From an uncultured Rhodospirillales bacterium (GTDB taxonomy: Bacteria; Pseudomonadota; Alphaproteobacteria; Acetobacterales; Acetobacteraceae), in NCBI GenBank assembly GCA_903823665.1, contig CAIJTR010000187.1, positions 1 to 35,156 of the forward strand: a stretch of DNA of 35,156 nt, read 5' to 3'. This document shows, piece after piece, positions 5,053 through 17,876 of this stretch. The stretch's first letter is position 1. The number at the start of each line of letters is the position of its first letter. The position numbers and the translations under genes are program-made. A model generated the notes under the pieces. The model worked only from the letters and a program-made list of their open reading frames with translations, ran no database searches and had not been told where the DNA came from.

Positions 5053-6021
5053 TCAATCTCCGCTTTGTTGCGCGCCGGGCCAGCTGATGCCGAGGCGTGG
5101 ATCGAAGGAGGTTCCACCGGCCGGGGGACGGCTGGCTTGGCGCGCTAGGTTGGAGGCGACCCAGTGACCGAGGCGTGTTCCGTCGAGATAGACGTCTCCA
5201 GTGGTCGGAGTTGCCGAGGCCGTTTGGGTTTGAGGCGCGATTGGATGTTGCGCGGAAGCGGCCTGTGGTTGGCCCGACAACGGCTGGACGCGCGTTTCAA
5301 GCTGTTGTGGTGCTGCGGACTGCCGGGTTGCGGGGGTCGCGTCTGACCGTGCTGCATTGGCGAACGGCGGTGGAGCTGGCGATTGCGCGGCGGCTTCGGA
5401 CACGGTGGTAGGAGCTACGGAGGTTGCGGCTGGGGGACTTGGCGCAGCGCTGGAGTGACGTTCCGGTGGCTCGCGTGGCGTGACAGGCGCTTTGGGCGGT
5501 GGTGATCGGTCTGGTTTGTCGATGGGCCTAGGGGACGCTGCAAGCGCTGGCTGAGTTGAGGGCGGAGGTGTGGGCGGTGCCAGCACAATCGGCACCTGTG
5601 TGACCGGAGATGCAGGTGAGATGTCAGCGTCAACGCTCAACGGCTGCGGAGTCCGGCTTGCCGTCAGTGCCGTGGACTGCGCCGAGGGCCCAGGGGCGTT
5701 CGGAATGACCGGGCTTAGTTGTGTGGCAGGCGCGAGGCCCGGTCTATTGTCATCCGGTTGTTGGACTGCCGGTGCTGGCTGAGTGGTTGGTCCGACCTCT
5801 GCATTCACAGGCGGTGGTGCCGGAAGCGCTGGCAGGCGTGCGGGGGGAATGAAACCCGCGGCTGTTGTTTGGGCGGCGAGCGCCTGGAGTTGCCGCAGGT
5901 TGCTGGCGCTGTCGGCAATGGCACCGTCAAGCGCCTTCAGCTCATCGCGAATGGCCGCCACACCTGCACTGACGCCGTTATCCAGGGCGAGGCGGATGCC
6001 GATTAAGTAGGCGTCCTCCAT
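5053..6021 (-). CDS. Putative short tail tape-measure protein, Pro/Ala-rich
   Basis: This 322-residue protein occupies the tape-measure position, two genes after the frameshifted chaperone and just before the gpU-, X- and D-like genes. It has a short N-terminal helical segment (DELKALDGAIADSASNLRQL, residues about 26-45). About 200 residues follow that are very rich in Pro, Ala, Gln and Ser and probably disordered. It ends in a conserved-looking C-terminal block with DVYLDGTRLGHWVASNLA and RPPAGGTSFDPRLG. No transmembrane helices, long coiled coil or lytic domain are visible, and it is far shorter than usual tape measures (often 600 or more residues). It starts at ATG 6021, sharing an ATGA overlap with the gp10-like gene. 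The tape-measure role is inferred from position only. It could instead be an adaptor. Confidence 0.5.
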   Translation of the reverse strand: MEDAYLIGIRLALDNGVSAGVAAIRDELKALDGAIADSASNLRQLQALAAQTTAAGFIPPARLPALPAPPPVNAEVGPTTQPAPAVQQPDDNRPGLAPATQLSPVIPNAPGPSAQSTALTASRTPQPLSVDADISPASPVTQVPIVLAPPTPPPSTQPALAASPRPIDKPDRSPPPKAPVTPREPPERHSSAAPSPPAATSVAPTTVSEAAAQSPAPPPFANAARSDATPATRQSAAPQQLETRVQPLSGQPQAASAQHPIAPQTQTASATPTTGDVYLDGTRLGHWVASNLARQASRPPAGGTSFDPRLGISWPGAQQSGD

Positions 6022-6380
6022 CAGCGGGCTCCCAATGCGGTGGCGACGGCCAATCCGATGGCGTGCGCGATGCCCTCACCGGATTTTGCTGCGATGGGCG
6101 CGAAGGTTGGGCGGGGCGTGATGGTGGCGGTGCCATGCTCCTGATAGACGGCGACGTCTGACGTGCTTGCGACGACTGCATCCGGCCCTTGCGACCGGGC
6201 TTCGACGCTGTCTCTCAGCGTGCCGGTTCTAAGCCACGGATAATCATGTGGGCCACCAGGCGGAACGGAGAGTGCCTGACGGATTTGGTCTGCAAGGCCG
6301 TTCGCGGCGACACTCAGTGCCGTTTCGCCGACGGTTTTAAAATCCTGGTCGAGCTGGCTGATGGCGGTTGATAATTTCAC
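6021..6380 (-). CDS. HK97 gp10-like phage protein
   Basis: This 119-residue protein starts at GTG 6380. The GTG overlaps the TGA of the frameshift extension upstream (GTGA). The late motif YQEHGTATITPRPTFAPIA matches the HK97-gp10-like family signature, as does DYPWLRTGTLRDSVEA. These proteins act in head closure or tail completion. Here the gene lies between the tail chaperone and the putative tape measure, which is later in the order than usual for this family, where it normally sits with the head-tail connectors. Confidence 0.8.
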   Translation of the reverse strand: MKLSTAISQLDQDFKTVGETALSVAANGLADQIRQALSVPPGGPHDYPWLRTGTLRDSVEARSQGPDAVVASTSDVAVYQEHGTATITPRPTFAPIAAKSGEGIAHAIGLAVATALGAR

Positions 6381-6550
6381 GGCCGTTCCTTCCAGGTGAG
6401 CGTCTCAAAGTCGAAGGTGCCGCCATCAAGCTGGCCAAGGGCTACGACCCAGGCAAGGCGGTCTTCCGGTGGTAGGGAGAAGGCGACGTCGAACGGCACC
6501 CCGTTCCGGCACAGATAAAGGCTGTCGACCAGATCGGGGTGCCTACTCAG
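6377..6550 (-). CDS. Frameshift extension (T part) of the tail assembly chaperone
   Basis: This 57-codon open frame has no ATG and no usable start in front. It begins inside the end of the chaperone gene in the -1 frame (LSRHPDLVDSLYLCRNG) and ends at TGA 6379-6377. It is well formed and coding-like (PFDVAFSLPPEDRLAWVVALG). It is best read as the part added when ribosomes slip at GGGAAAC (6556-6550), giving a fusion of about 171 residues. In phage lambda and many others the G and GT products together chaperone the tape measure. The placement between tube and tape measure matches that rule. Confidence 0.85.
   Translation of the reverse strand: MSRHPDLVDSLYLCRNGVPFDVAFSLPPEDRLAWVVALGQLDGGTFDFETLTWKERP
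6495..6543 (-). other. Predicted frameshift-stimulating RNA stem-loop
   Basis: In the leftward mRNA the sequence GGCACCCCG (6543-6535) pairs perfectly with CGGGGTGCC (6503-6495) around a 31-nt loop. The 9-bp stem begins 6 nt after the slippery heptamer, inside the 5-9 nt window usual for -1 frameshift stimulators. The loop has room for extra pairing or a pseudoknot, but no strong one is obvious by eye. Confidence 0.8.
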
Positions 6551-6891
6551 TTTCCCGCGTGGATGGCCTGATCGACGGGTGGAGCCTCTGGTGCAAGTGC
6601 CAGGGCGACGGCAGCAATTCCGGTATCACCGAGACGTGAGACGAGACTTTCGATCTGCGCCTCAGTGGTTGGGGTGGGAATTGGGATGTCGTCGATGGAG
6701 GTGACGCTACAGGCCAGCGTGGCCATGCCGAGCCAGAGGTGGTTTTGAGCTAGGATGGGACCGGCGGCTTTGAACAAACGCAGCTTGTCGAGTGCTGACA
6801 GGCGGCGAATGTTGATCCGGCGGCCTTCGCTGTCGGTCAGGCTCTGCATCGCGGCTATAGTTGCGAGGTGGCGGTGCGTTGGAGATTCCAT
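6547..6891 (-). CDS. Tail assembly chaperone (G-type product)
   Basis: This 114-residue protein is encoded immediately after the tail tube gene. This is the universal place for the tail assembly chaperone, which coats the tape measure during tail assembly and is absent from the mature particle. The sequence is helical with INIRRLSALDKLRLFKAAG and a Pro-rich segment (IPIPTPTTEAQIESLVSRLG). The zero-frame end is HAGN then TGA, and the last two codons are part of a slippery GGGAAAC. The function follows from the combination of location and frameshift cassette. Sequence similarity alone would not settle it. Confidence 0.85.
   Translation of the reverse strand: MESPTHRHLATIAAMQSLTDSEGRRINIRRLSALDKLRLFKAAGPILAQNHLWLGMATLACSVTSIDDIPIPTPTTEAQIESLVSRLGDTGIAAVALALAPEAPPVDQAIHAGN
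6550..6556 (-). promoter_or_regulatory. Programmed -1 frameshift slippery heptamer GGGAAAC
   Basis: The mRNA reads G GGA AAC TGA in the zero frame. This matches the X XXY YYZ rule (GGG, AAA, C), so both tRNAs can re-pair after a one-base backward slip. The zero-frame stop follows at once, and the -1 frame stays open for 57 codons. Phage lambda uses the near-identical GGGAAAG at the same gene position. Confidence 0.85.
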
Positions 6892-6901
6892 CGCGATGGC
6901 C

Positions 6902-7330
6902 TTAGACGCGGACGCGGGTGGCAGCGAAGAATTCCAGACGCTGCTTCACACTATGGTCACCGCGCCACTGCCCGGCCTGGGTGAGTTTAAAGACGACCGA
7001 GGTGAACTGATACGTACTAGTGCTGCCGTTCACTTCACTGACGTATTGATAGAGCGTGCCGGTTGGGACCGCACTGCCGCCGATGAAGGCGGCTTCGGTT
7101 TGGGCGATGAAATCATCGACTGAGGAGCTACCGCGTTCAATCTCGAAGTGTCCCTCCCAGCCTTTCGGCAGTTCGGCTGCGAGCTGGCTGCCGTCGATCC
7201 GGTCGACGCGGATGGGGGCGGTGAGCTGGCGGGCTTCGAAGCCAGTGACGTGGCTGAGATCGACGCGGCCGAATGGGCCCATCAGGACGAGTTGGCAGTC
7301 GCGACCTACGTTGAAGGCGGTGCTGGTCAT
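6902..7330 (-). CDS. Phage tail tube protein
   Basis: This 142-residue protein follows the sheath gene by 12 bases, the standard sheath-tube order of contractile tails. It shows the beta-rich pattern of tube proteins: an N-terminal NVGRDCQLVLMGPFGRVDLSHVTGF, then APIRVDRIDG and a C-terminal beta segment with VFKLTQAGQWRGDHSVKQRLEFFA. It polymerises into the inner tube through which DNA passes. The size agrees with P2- and Mu-type tube proteins. Confidence 0.85.
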   Translation of the reverse strand: MTSTAFNVGRDCQLVLMGPFGRVDLSHVTGFEARQLTAPIRVDRIDGSQLAAELPKGWEGHFEIERGSSSVDDFIAQTEAAFIGGSAVPTGTLYQYVSEVNGSTSTYQFTSVVFKLTQAGQWRGDHSVKQRLEFFAATRVRV

Positions 7331-7342
7331 GATTTGAGTTCC

Positions 7343-8914
7343 TTATGCCTGCAACGCGCCGGGAGCGCCGGGAAGGGTTTGGCGGCTGACCTGGACAGTC
7401 TGCCCGCCTTCAATGTTGACGATGAACTTCTCATTGATCGCCTGATATTGGATCTGTGCGTCGGACTGCACGTAACCTAGGCCGGTTCGGGTGAGCGGGT
7501 TGTTGGTAGTGTCGCAGATGACGCTGAATGGGAGCGCGCCGTTGGTGCTGCCGAGCAGGCCCTGGCTGAGCATGCCTTGCAAAAAGCTCAGTTGGGTTGA
7601 GCGGATGCGGCGGAACAGGGAGGCGTTGATCACTTGGCCGACGTATTGCCCCATGCCGGAGGCGAGCGTGGCGGCGATGAAATTCGTCAGGCGCGTGTAG
7701 TTGTCACCGTTGGTGGCGGCGTTGCTGCTTGAGTTATGGCCACCGCGCACCCCCCAGAACGAGCCAGCGGGCTGCGGGTTGGCGACCACGTCTATGCCAG
7801 CGCCGATCAGGGCCCCGAGATCTGCAGCGGAATAGGTTGCCGATTGGCCACTGCCGGGATTGCCAGATTTTTGCGATCCGACGACGCCGTAGAGCGGTTT
7901 ATTCAGGCTGGATTGTTCGGGTGAGAGATTGGCTAGGCGACCGGCGACAAAGCCCTGCGGGCTGATCAGCCGCAAAGCGGCGTTGGTCTGGTCGTTCCAG
8001 TAGATCCAATCGCCAAAAAGCAGTTTGCACGCATAGGTGTCAAGACCAGCGGCCTGTTTGGTGGCGATTGCGTTTGCGATGGAGTCCGACGCCGGGCCGG
8101 TAAGGATCATGTAGACCCCTTCGGACAAACCGAAGGCGGCCTGGGTTGTCCATTGCGTGCTGTCGTCAGCGTCCGCCAGAACGCCGATGGAGCAGGCCTG
8201 GCCGCGCAGGGCATACATGCCGTGACGCGGCAGAGTGTCGGTTCCAACCACGGTTGCGGCCGAGATCGTGGTGACGCCGTCCGTGCCGACCGGTCCACCG
8301 TTGAAGGTGTAGTTCGCCGTAGCGGGGGCAACTGACGTACCGCCGGAGGTAGCGACGACAAGCTGGCTGGGGCCGCGTTGCACGCCATTGCCGGTGTTGA
8401 TGGCGCTTGCCAGATTGATCCAGAACTGGGTGCCGGTCCCGGCAATGTTGTTGAAAACCTCTGGCTGTAATCCTGGCAAGACGATGGTGCAGCGCCAGGT
8501 TCCGGCGGCACTGCCGGGTGAGAGGGAAAGTGAGATGAGATTGCCGAGACTGCCGGTGTAGATTGCCACGACGAAGAATGAGGTGCCAGGTAGCATGAAG
8601 GCGGCGGCAGTGTCTGTGCCGTCCGTTACGCGGACACAGCGGAAGTTTGACGCGCCCTGCTGCACGGCTGCGGCGACGGTGGTGCCCATGTCGTATTTGC
8701 GGGCCATCACCGGTCCGAAGTTGCGGGCATAGTCGGCCATGCTGGAGGCGATGACGGGCTGGCCGACCGGACCCCAGCTTGCAGTGCCCACGACGCCCAT
8801 GATGTTGGTCGGCACGCCGTTGAGAACGAGGTTCTGCGGCGGCACGATCTGCACGTAGAGATCGGGTACCACGAGGGCGGTGGTGTTGATGTTACCTTGC
8901 TGAACAATCGGCAT
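7343..8914 (-). CDS. Contractile tail sheath protein
   Basis: This 523-residue protein has the usual sheath length. The N-terminal region (NLVLNGVPTNIMGVVGTASWGPVGQPV and ARKYDMGTTVAAAVQQGASNFRCVRVTDGT) is typical of phage tail sheath families. The C-terminal part has LTNFIAATLASGMGQYVGQVINASLFRRIRSTQLSFLQGMLSQGLLG, then a beta segment (VNIEGGQTVQVSRQTLPG). Its presence shows that the tail is contractile. The protein contracts around the tube to drive injection. It starts at ATG 8914, three bases after the stop of the small protein upstream. Confidence 0.93.
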   Translation of the reverse strand: MPIVQQGNINTTALVVPDLYVQIVPPQNLVLNGVPTNIMGVVGTASWGPVGQPVIASSMADYARNFGPVMARKYDMGTTVAAAVQQGASNFRCVRVTDGTDTAAAFMLPGTSFFVVAIYTGSLGNLISLSLSPGSAAGTWRCTIVLPGLQPEVFNNIAGTGTQFWINLASAINTGNGVQRGPSQLVVATSGGTSVAPATANYTFNGGPVGTDGVTTISAATVVGTDTLPRHGMYALRGQACSIGVLADADDSTQWTTQAAFGLSEGVYMILTGPASDSIANAIATKQAAGLDTYACKLLFGDWIYWNDQTNAALRLISPQGFVAGRLANLSPEQSSLNKPLYGVVGSQKSGNPGSGQSATYSAADLGALIGAGIDVVANPQPAGSFWGVRGGHNSSSNAATNGDNYTRLTNFIAATLASGMGQYVGQVINASLFRRIRSTQLSFLQGMLSQGLLGSTNGALPFSVICDTTNNPLTRTGLGYVQSDAQIQYQAINEKFIVNIEGGQTVQVSRQTLPGAPGALQA

Positions 8915-14297: not shown

Positions 14298-15242
14298 TTA
14301 GCCGAGGCTGTTGCTGTCTTCGTCGCGCTGGCGGAGGTAGAGTTCGAGTTCGCGGCGCAGAACTGGCTTGTTGCAAGCGAGTTCCATGACGCCCCACGTG
14401 TTGCACTTGAGGTCTCTGTCCGGATCGAAGCCGTGACGCAGAAACATACTCCAGCGTTCGAGGTATTGGCGTTTCGGCTTGGCACCATGCCAATGATGCT
14501 CGATCGTGCCAGGAACTGCGCCGATATTGCCGTTGATATGGCGGGTGACGCGGTCCTGCCATTGCATTAGACGACGCTGGTAGGAGGGGCTCGTGCCGCC
14601 AGGGATGGATTGGTCGGCGGCACCCACGAGTGATAGAGCCATGTGATGGTCCCCCGCCCCCATGGCCGCGAAGTCTATCAGGCCACCCGTCCAGTTAAGT
14701 GCCTGCCGCGTGGCGGCCCAGGCGTATCCAGGATGCGGGTAATCATTGTAGCCGCCGTTGAAGACCCAGAACTTGTCGTGGGTGGCGACAACCGGGCTGC
14801 CCTGATGCAGCTGGCGGCAGAAGCTCACGTGATGCTGTAGATGCTCGTCATGTGGGCCGAGATCATAGGCGTCGGTCCATGGCTGAACGATGTCGTAGAG
14901 TTGCAAGGCGTGGACGGTCTCAGTTGCCCAATGCGGCCTACGAAAATGGATATCGGCGTCGATCCAGGCCACGTACTGCCATTCCGCCGGAAGGCGGGAC
15001 AGACCGATGTTGATGAGATTTTCCTTGTTCCAAACAATGGTCTTACTGCGGACACCGACGAAATTGATACCTAGCGTATCGGCAAGCTCATGCGGACGGT
15101 CGCCGTAGGCGCATTCAACGACGGTGAGTCTGACGCCACTGTCCAGCATGTGTGCGATGAAGCGCCGGGCAAGGATGCTGCGCGATTGCCAACGGATTGG
15201 GTTGGCGACGACTGCAATGACATGGAGAAGGTCGGCGCGCAT
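14298..15242 (-). CDS. GT-A-like glycosyltransferase in the phage packaging module
   Basis: The protein has 314 residues and looks like a nucleotide-sugar glycosyltransferase of GT-A fold. It begins LLHVIAVVANPIRWQSR, followed by a Rossmann-like N-terminal half. The motif WIDADIHF (residues 93-100) contains DAD at 95-97, the metal-binding DxD type. A segment with GTIEHHWHGAKPKRQYLERW near residue 250 resembles galactosyltransferase C-terminal motifs. It is encoded between terminase (stop 34 bases upstream) and portal in the same direction, so it is expressed with the virion genes. The substrate is unknown. It could modify the host surface, phage proteins or another glycan. It is a moron-type gene, not needed for packaging itself. 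Confidence 0.75.
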   Translation of the reverse strand: MRADLLHVIAVVANPIRWQSRSILARRFIAHMLDSGVRLTVVECAYGDRPHELADTLGINFVGVRSKTIVWNKENLINIGLSRLPAEWQYVAWIDADIHFRRPHWATETVHALQLYDIVQPWTDAYDLGPHDEHLQHHVSFCRQLHQGSPVVATHDKFWVFNGGYNDYPHPGYAWAATRQALNWTGGLIDFAAMGAGDHHMALSLVGAADQSIPGGTSPSYQRRLMQWQDRVTRHINGNIGAVPGTIEHHWHGAKPKRQYLERWSMFLRHGFDPDRDLKCNTWGVMELACNKPVLRRELELYLRQRDEDSNSLG

Positions 15243-16698: not shown

Positions 16699-17222
16699 GT
16701 GATCCTGGGATTTTGGGGACGATGGAAGTGCGCTGCGTGCGCCTCAGTCCGATCATAAGGAAATAGATAGATCATTTTGGGGTGGTTGGGAAGGAACTTC
16801 TTCCACTTTAGGGCGAATTTCCTTTTGCGGCGGATTTTCTGGGTGCGCGACAGGAAAACTGCAACGGACCGGATTGATGCATTTCAGCGCATGCGTTGAC
16901 ATGTTGCGCAGATTAATTTTGAGAAATTGTTTTTTTTCAGTGGTTTATGCAGATATTCCACAAAGTTGACAAATGGAATGTCTTCTGGTTGTGACTGAAT
17001 ATGGCAAGAATGGGGCGATGCTGGGCACGATAAAGGGTTGATCTGCGGACGTTCTCTTGCATCTATGCTCACTCTGACTGCGGTATTTCGCCACGAGCAC
17101 TATGTGTTGCTGTAGCTGGATTTTGGGCTGGCTTGGCGAGTGTGCCATCGGCCTGTCAGGAACTGGATCGTTTTGCATCCGGCCCTGAGCTACAGCCTCG
17201 CTGGAACGAGATGGGAGCGTTG
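16699..17222. other. Non-coding stretch between terminase and RlpA-like gene
   Basis: This 524-base stretch has no convincing gene. Short frames lack ribosome-binding sites and coding character. It must carry leftward control for the structural operon and rightward control for the RlpA-like gene. TTGACA hexamers occur on the + strand near 16,897 and 16,965, but no matching -10 element lies 16-18 bases away. The part from 16,740 to 16,980 is visibly richer in A+T. Confidence 0.5.
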
Positions 17223-17876
17223 ATGATCGCTGTGACAAAGAGAGCGTTTGGGATCACCCTCTCGCTTATGATGAGTGTTTCGATGGCAGAGCCTGCGATG
17301 GCCGCCGCCACAGACGCAAGCAAGGAAAATGGCAAAGTTCACCGTGCATCGACCACAACCGGTGCGACGGCTTCGACCAGGGCCAGAACCGGCACCAAGA
17401 CGACCACAAAAACGTTAGCCTCGGCCAATCGAGCTTCGCACGGGCGTGCCCGCACGCGCGATATTCCGTCCTATTCGGGTTGGTCGAGCGATCGCAACAT
17501 TCGTCGCGCCAGCCTGTCTGGTCATGTTGACCATTCTTTGATCGATGACGGCACGCTATGGCGTGAGGACGGTCATCAGTCGTCGACGTGGCAGCAGGTC
17601 GGGATGGCTTCCTGGTATGGCGGCAAGCGTTGGCAGGGCCATGCGACGAGTTCGGGTAGCGCGTTCGATGAGAATGCCCTTACGGCGGCGCATGCAACGT
17701 TGCCGCTGGGGACGAAGGTGCGTGTTGTTCGCCATGACGGCGCGCGTTCCGTCATTGTGACGATCAATGACCGGCCCGGCACGCGCACGCGGATCATCGA
17801 CCTATCGCGTGAAGCCGCCAAACAGCTGGGTATTCTCGATGCCGGCGTGGCAATGGTGACGCTGCAGCCGATGTGA
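17223..17876 (+). CDS. RlpA-like double-psi beta-barrel secreted protein
   Basis: The protein has 217 residues from ATG 17223, which has GGGAG five bases before it. A longer frame from 17133 would put 30 polar residues before the signal peptide. An N-terminal signal sequence (MIAVTKRAFGITLSLMMSVSM, ending near AMAAA) is followed by a Thr/Ala/Arg-rich linker to about residue 120. The DPBB domain then begins GMASWYGGKRWQGHATSSG and has TAAHATLPLGTKVRV, TINDRPG and RIIDLSREAAKQLG. Family members bind or cleave denuded peptidoglycan strands in the periplasm. The usual DRGPF loop is shortened to DRPG. It lies between phage genes and runs opposite to them, so it may be a phage-carried wall enzyme or a host gene. 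Confidence 0.88.
   Translation: MIAVTKRAFGITLSLMMSVSMAEPAMAAATDASKENGKVHRASTTTGATASTRARTGTKTTTKTLASANRASHGRARTRDIPSYSGWSSDRNIRRASLSGHVDHSLIDDGTLWREDGHQSSTWQQVGMASWYGGKRWQGHATSSGSAFDENALTAAHATLPLGTKVRVVRHDGARSVIVTINDRPGTRTRIIDLSREAAKQLGILDAGVAMVTLQPM

Follow-up and report, generated by a model that had tools for sequence, protein, structure and literature searches.

Phages with contractile tails, among them P2, whose frameshift gene products are named E and E+E', use the same kind of −1 ribosomal frameshift as the G/GT genes of phage lambda. In lambda, a short gene of the tail module carries a slippery heptamer of the form X XXY YYZ near its 3' end and is followed by a −1 extension that has no start codon upstream (in part from excerpts of PMC5009743). 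The same excerpts report that shifting is 2- to 3-fold more frequent in P2 and its relatives, and that the g-t sites of the haloarchaeal viruses HCTV-1 and HCTV-2 read G_GGA_AAC and A_AAA_AAC. Here we describe a locus of this type in a contig of 35,156 nucleotides (nt) from an uncultured Rhodospirillales bacterium of the Acetobacteraceae (CAIJTR010000187.1 of assembly GCA_903823665.1; this whole stretch of DNA is called the window). Comparison with its relatives indicates that the gene for a predicted tail assembly chaperone, in a prophage with a contractile tail, very probably undergoes programmed −1 ribosomal frameshifting. Judged by sequence, the cassette adds a strong new case to the known G/GT class, and the comparative evidence for it is unusually complete.

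The locus shares with lambda the short tail-module gene, the heptamer near its 3' end and the extension without an upstream start, and its short product may have a chaperone-like fold, to judge from a moderate match. It differs from lambda in that the heptamer ends in AAC and not in the AAG favoured in E. coli, and in that a stem of fixed geometry follows. It differs further in having a sheath gene (contractile tail), an HK97-gp10-like gene next in line and an extension without sequence or fold match to a known T domain. HCTV-1 and HCTV-2 have the same two heptamers that predominate among the relatives of this locus but, unlike the prophage in the window, are archaeal siphoviruses. The named phage relatives are the Komagataeibacter phages phiKX1 and phiKX2; in phiKX1, AAAAAAC TGA occurs together with this stem in an unchanged register. 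Identity in the chaperone is about 33%.

A first-pass annotation of the window, made from the letters alone, had pointed to a frameshift cassette at the end of an open reading frame (ORF) of 114 codons. This observation is confirmed, and the parts of the cassette lie as follows.

6547..6891, minus strand: zero-frame ORF of 114 amino acids (aa), predicted tail assembly chaperone (short form), from PHROG 20383 (a family without functional annotation), AlphaFold2 and a moderate fold match to HK97 2ob9
6550..6556, minus strand: slippery heptamer G GGA AAC (GGGAAAC), in phase as X XXY YYZ, conserved
6547..6549, minus strand: zero-frame stop TGA adjoining the heptamer, read from the sequence, at the same position in 128/145 loci
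6544..6549, minus strand: 6-nt spacer from heptamer to stem, read from the sequence
6535..6543, minus strand: 5' arm of the stem, GGCACCCCG, from pairing, conservation and covariation
6504..6534, minus strand: 31-nt loop, read from the sequence
6495..6503, minus strand: 3' arm of the stem, CGGGGTGCC, coding for xGVP in the −1 frame, from pairing, codon constraint and covariation
6505..6533, minus strand: span of an inner helix of 3 base pairs (bp), 6533-6531 with 6507-6505, with one unpaired nt on each side before the stem, predicted by RNAalifold
6377..6550, minus strand: −1 frame extension of 57 codons plus TGA, the T-like part of a predicted 171-residue fusion, from the open frame, homologues and AlphaFold2

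The ORF (114 codons, 6891-6547) ends in GCG GGA AAC TGA, which places the heptamer in phase at 6556-6550 with the stop directly after it. The 9-bp stem with its 31-nt loop was found where it had been proposed, 6 nt past the heptamer at 6543-6495, and its distance agrees with the 5-8 nt that generally separate heptamer and stem in −1 frameshift signals (excerpts of PMC4066793). In the −1 frame 57 codons without a stop follow (6550-6380), and the TGA that closes it at 6379-6377 shares bases with the GTG at 6380, giving the reported GTGA overlap with the next gene. The claim that the extension has no start codon of its own stood for the part upstream of position 6499 and failed there: the sole in-frame GTG of the window's extension is its codon 17 (counted from 0), at 6499 within the 3' arm. 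The 73 nt 3' of the heptamer fold with −33.7 kcal/mol (z −3.78), and 0/200 dinucleotide shuffles were as stable. The background of X XXY YYZ heptamers is 0.0014 per base per strand over the whole window.

To place these features in a comparative frame, 147 loci were read, comprising the window, 129 loci from genomes of the same family, 16 from IMG/VR and phiKX1. The 129 are part of the matches listed; the 114-aa protein upstream of the shift was matched in 160/397 family genomes, the window's own genome included. Two loci with contigs ending before the end of the first ORF (L043, L045) were dropped, leaving 145 loci to be counted. Stem counts leave out L141, codon counts leave out L080, L111 and L114, and the 128-row counts of stem and RNAalifold also leave out L131. 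Alignment A1 consists of 39 of the 128 rows with mutual identity <78%; A2 (57 sequences) and A3 (50 sequences) were picked from cassette-bearing loci. Two further sets were drawn from IMG/VR, both sharing some contigs with the first. One is a pattern scan for three purines, AAAC and the stem, with XXX free among eight triples, which yielded at least 119 loci in 114 distinct stretches. The other consists of the closest 80 of 481 relatives of the 114-aa protein, found with profile A2, itself built from cassette loci.

An in-phase X XXY YYZ heptamer is present in 143/145 loci, the window included. Its types are GGGAAAC (93 loci), AAAAAAC (44), AAAAAAA (2), CCCTTTG (2), GGGAAAT (1) and AAAAAAT (1), with none in 2; the CCCTTTG loci, L111 and L114, form a divergent subtype with no stem in register. 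In the closest 80 of 481 IMG/VR relatives, the heptamer (78 GGGAAAC, 2 AAAAAAC) and the −1 extension were each found in 80/80, and the stem had 9/9 pairs in 78 loci and 8/9 in 2. A heptamer adjoins the stop of 125/142 chaperone genes, as against 0/143 for the neighbouring tube genes, 0/139 for sheath and 0/32 for gp10-like genes. When an in-phase heptamer was allowed within 24 nt of the stop, the counts were 140 for the chaperone gene, 5 for tube and 0 for both sheath and gp10-like genes. Among the 119 IMG/VR pattern loci listed, XXX is GGG in 93 and AAA in 26, and none of the other six allowed triples occurs, as would be expected because tandem slippage requires this restriction.

The A-rich members of this series could in principle act during transcription instead, through slippage of the polymerase that generates a mixed mRNA population; AAAAAAC has six A in a row, and AAAAAAA is found in L065 and L143. 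However, the window and most loci (93/145) carry GGGAAAC, with runs of only three, and a polymerase would need neither a fixed spacer nor a covarying RNA stem downstream. We consider transcriptional slippage scarcely credible as the source of the fusion.

The zero-frame stop provides a further distinction. It directly follows the heptamer in 128/145 loci, as would be predicted if the shift occurred while AAC occupied the P site and the stop the A site, and not during elongation on the heptamer. Yet the stop lies 3 nt on in 2 loci and 18-21 nt on in 13, of which 12 keep at least 8/9 stem pairs (the other is L114). Stops displaced by 18 nt are also found in 17/119 pattern loci among the matches listed and in 7/80 of the closest IMG/VR loci, and stops displaced by 36 nt in 5 Pantoea-type loci. 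Stops moved by 18-36 nt with the heptamer kept argue against a stop-dependent shift, and the uniformity of GGG or AAA at XXX points to two tRNAs, which makes such a shift improbable in our estimation. The first-pass annotation had proposed an alignment of homologues in which heptamer and stem would be conserved and the zero-frame stop would not. The former proved correct (143/145 for the heptamer, 128/132 for the stem), but the stop is mostly conserved too. For a Shine-Dalgarno-like stimulator upstream, the count was 57/128 vs 31% in shuffles, at most a mild excess, and no conserved element was seen.

Conservation of the stem was assessed by pairing, by sliding one partner against the other and by codon usage. 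In a fixed register (spacer 6, arms 9, loop 31), at least 8/9 pairs form in 128/132 distinct cassettes. Across the 128 rows, 97.5% of outer-stem cells are paired vs 38-51% with the partner slid by 1-3 nt; 5/9 stem pairs show changes on both sides, and three pairs are exchanged in L143. The inner helix is paired in 82.6% of cells vs 23-69% slid, with 46 both-side-changed cells vs 0-32. In the 39-row alignment, inner helix included, 91.5% of cells are paired vs 36-51% slid, and 24 cells in 7/12 pairs are changed on both sides vs 4-21 cells slid; 0/500 shuffles reach any of these measures. Slides and codons were given more weight, because related sequences can beat shuffles without any structure.

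The codons of the arms are frozen. Glycine is GGG in 122/129 (expected 0.28), valine GTG in 128/128 (0.53), histidine CAC in 121/126 (0.51) and proline CCC in 94/113 (0.25). The next proline codon, with its third base outside the stem, is not frozen (CCG in 59/127, expected 0.53). Bias is also seen outside the arms: in the spacer, serine is encoded by AGC in 80/107 (expected 0.28) and otherwise by AGT, at a place where the bases are under additional constraint from the overlapping stop. A pseudoknot or distant pairing was sought and rejected: the top-40 mutual-information pairs with average product correction (APC; 128 rows), among those listed, were scattered and in many cases rarely Watson-Crick, like a codon or relatedness signal. 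One top-40 pair, 23-51, is the inner-helix pair predicted by RNAalifold. An Rfam search at the site returned one chance match and nothing relevant.

The two halves of the predicted fusion were next considered as proteins. AlphaFold2 gave a predicted local distance difference test score (pLDDT) of 92.0 for the 114-aa product and 92.7 for the extension. The best PDB chain found by Foldseek for the 114-aa product was 2ob9, the HK97 tail assembly chaperone (prob 0.93, E 0.026, TM 0.44), which we take to be HK97 gp13. VIA-align placed 3klu (YqbN, presumably with a tail chaperone role) at Z 5.1 and 2ob9 at Z 4.8, at the top of 381 aligned chains, with 8-19% sequence identity. In a viral fold library, an unnamed phage protein ranked first (E 7.3e-7) and the chaperones of Bacillus phage Gemini and Rhodococcus phage Finch third and sixth, with baseplate hub proteins beside them at fourth and sixteenth. 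On these models we lean towards a tail assembly chaperone fold for the 114-aa product. By sequence, Pfam gave no match for either half in the window proteins and single-member matches only in the alignments, PHROGs gave weak matches of the extension to unannotated families in 1-3/50 members, and the PDB gave nothing convincing for either half. No convincing match of the extension to known T domains was found in Pfam, PHROGs or the PDB sequences.

The extension homologue lies in the −1 frame in 143/145 loci; the exceptions are L044, with a contig that ends at the stop, and L122, in which it lies in the +1 frame. Several observations speak against a programmed frameshift, and the first of these bear on an arrangement of two separate overlapping genes, in which re-initiation or translational coupling at a separate start would yield the second part without any frameshift. 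A start-type codon occurs at or before extension codon 5 in 29/141 loci, and 140/141 have one by codon 23, from which a shorter internal product could arise; the GTG at codon 17 of the window is nearly invariant. In L122 (33% identical) the second part appears to start at a separate ATG, which is preceded by GGAG and lies within the last stretch of the first ORF, and the GenBank record of phiKX1 annotates the two parts as two hypothetical genes. On the other side, 112/141 loci contain no ATG, GTG or TTG in the −1 frame from the previous stop through extension codon 5. An early start of this kind has a Shine-Dalgarno core in 4/141 (L088 at extension codon 0, the other 3 hundreds of nt upstream; starts at or before codon 5 were those scored). 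The near-invariance of the GTG is accounted for by the stem, because in L143 both arms changed together and the GTG is gone. Separate genes would also leave the restriction of XXX to GGG or AAA in all 119 listed pattern loci without explanation. Given this balance, we regard separate genes as very improbable for the family, L122 being an apparent escape from frameshifting to separate overlapping genes.

The remaining points on the adverse side concern the RNA and the folds. L023 has no heptamer yet retains the −1 extension together with the later portion of the cassette, the covariance model matching positions 11-80 only; L080, L111 and L114 have no stem in register, and L131 has 5/9 pairs. 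In the outer stem alone, 11 cells are changed on both sides vs 2-19 slid (128 rows), so it is the fraction paired, and not the both-side changes, that separates the outer stem from its slid versions. In the 39 rows a slide by −1 comes near the true register (21 vs 24 both-side cells). In E. coli, GGGAAAC and AAAAAAC are described as heptamers of low efficiency, which insertion sequence (IS) elements nevertheless very likely use (excerpts of PMC4066793). The chaperone fold match is moderate, with Z values that can mean a mere common arrangement, and neither Foldseek nor VIA-align gave a convincing fold match for the extension, which is no proof of a new fold. The first-pass annotation had named separate genes, or a lost heptamer with the downstream frame kept, as evidence against its own reading; L023 and, apparently, L122 are such cases, but the 143 loci that carry a heptamer weigh more heavily. 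Its frameshift interpretation is supported, because heptamer, spacer, stem and extension are conserved together and are accompanied by compensatory changes and synonymous constraint.

These features suggest a mechanism in which most ribosomes would read GGA AAC TGA and release the 114-residue chaperone. A minority would meet the 9-bp stem, 6 nt further on, and pause; the tRNAs paired with GGA and AAC would then slip in tandem to GGG and AAA, and the shifted ribosomes would continue for 57 codons to give the 171-residue fusion. As a guide to expectation, frameshifting of 6% and 7% was measured for two members of a tail assembly chaperone gene cluster in a phage (excerpts of PMC3711429). By analogy with lambda gpG and gpGT, the short form would coat the tape measure, the C-terminal part of the fusion would recruit tube subunits, and both would leave the finished tail.

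The genes around the cassette run in the same direction and are listed here.

6021..6380, minus strand: next gene, HK97-gp10-like, with a GTG start that overlaps the extension stop (PF04883, E 5.8e-5; PHROG 5, E 1.3e-7; HK97-gp10/Neck1 families)
6902..7330, minus strand: 142-aa gene upstream of the cassette, which follows the sheath gene and on that position is a tail tube candidate (PHROG 12993, a family without functional annotation)
7343..8914, minus strand: tail sheath (PHROG 23, E 1e-42)
5053..6021, minus strand: 322-aa ORF, tape-measure candidate by position alone, without Pfam or PHROG match

Further upstream, with this orientation too, are genes for terminase and portal, and the tail is taken to be contractile because the prophage has a sheath gene. 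The chaperone gene had been placed between tube and tape measure; it does follow the sheath gene and the tube candidate, but the next gene is gp10-like and the tape-measure candidate lies one gene further. Between terminase and portal, a gene at 14298-15242 has a sub-threshold glycosyltransferase match; a comparison with 21 related loci showed no counterpart of it. An RlpA-like gene (double-psi beta-barrel, DPBB) at 17133-17876 lies within a few kb of the terminase, as one does in 9/20 related loci from 7 genera (L319-L324, L331, L332, L336), and may belong to the element. Among the matches listed for four genomes (G018:C36, G062:C1, G217:C1, G232:C6), none to a tyrosine integrase (PF00589) lies closer to the chaperone gene than about 20 kb.

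The distances of capsid, sheath and portal track those of host CobS (Mantel rho 0.75-0.81 in 21 genomes, 0/2000 permutations; L319-L338, window, L359-L379); the same comparison within 16 genomes gave rho 0.37-0.52, with 12/2000 permutations for capsid. The host DNA flanking the element varies from one genus to another and, past about 17 kb, inside the genus as well (five gene maps), and one genome has three copies among the matches listed. A domesticated, vertically inherited particle like a gene transfer agent (GTA) was considered and rejected because of these varying flanks and the three copies, which favour host-restricted prophages over a fixed domesticated locus. In G207:C145, two equal-scoring copies on opposite strands of one contig (23068-23391 and 57702-58025) are perhaps an assembly palindrome.

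The spread of the cassette was examined with a covariance model built from 39 sequences. Within the order it detected the cassette in 108/299 genomes, every one of them from the family of the window, and class-wide in 2/385 genomes, namely that of the window and another from this family (strict filters, with 12 candidates per genome scored). Among named genomes, 5 relatives were found by a scan, each a metagenome-assembled genome (MAG; 4 titled Rhodospirillales, 1 Proteobacteria). With the profile of the 114-aa protein, one weak match outside the family was seen, G687:C131 20767-20967 (L461, E 8.6e-4). Confinement of the cassette to the host family was considered and dropped after plasmid records of Pantoea and Aquitalea showed it. 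Three plasmid loci of Pantoea (Gammaproteobacteria) have AAAAAAC TAG and a −1 extension of 61 codons, and their stem occupies the corresponding position; in most it reads AGAACCCCG/CGGGGTTCC, with a C-G pair changed to A-U and the first pair open; the Aquitalea plasmid (Betaproteobacteria) is arranged as in Pantoea. On one Pantoea record already known to hold the cassette, the covariance model gave E 2.2e-7 in 742 kb. The IMG/VR relatives of the Pantoea protein have AAAAAAC in 46/47 loci (41 at the stop, 5 at 36 nt before it), the exception, L517, being a 71-residue partial match; these 47 loci represent only 17 distinct cassette sequences.

Annotation seems to miss the extension. In the PLSDB gene tables of the three Pantoea plasmids and one Aquitalea plasmid it corresponds to a gap of 177-181 nt (the tables are incomplete and the original records may list more). 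The word "frameshift" has 0 occurrences in the main text of the phiKX1 paper (PMC8566455). No earlier description of this cassette was found among titles and abstract openings, a scope outside which most subscription papers fall.

A single tRNA-Lys serves in about half of known bacteria, E. coli included (excerpts of PMC5009743). The window genome has tRNA-Lys(CUU), tRNA-Lys(UUU) and one tRNA-Asn(GUU) (30 loci examined of 46 tRNA matches), and the separate tRNA-Lys(CUU) may be the reason that AAG sites are avoided. We tentatively propose, as a possibility that falls somewhat short of an even chance, that the heptamer, 6-nt spacer, 9-bp stem and 31-nt loop constitute a single family of RNA elements of fixed geometry in alpha-, beta- and gammaproteobacterial prophages. 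In such elements a weak AAC site and a strong hairpin would be tuned jointly and so fix the ratio of the chaperone forms in hosts whose AAG codons have a separate tRNA-Lys(CUU), a setting in which the site favoured in E. coli would work poorly. The cassette is well supported as a frameshift element and is one without an Rfam match at the site searched. Its natural variants, with two main heptamers, moved stops, compensated stems and one apparent escape, offer a test set for how weak AAC sites may work with hairpins in bacteria.

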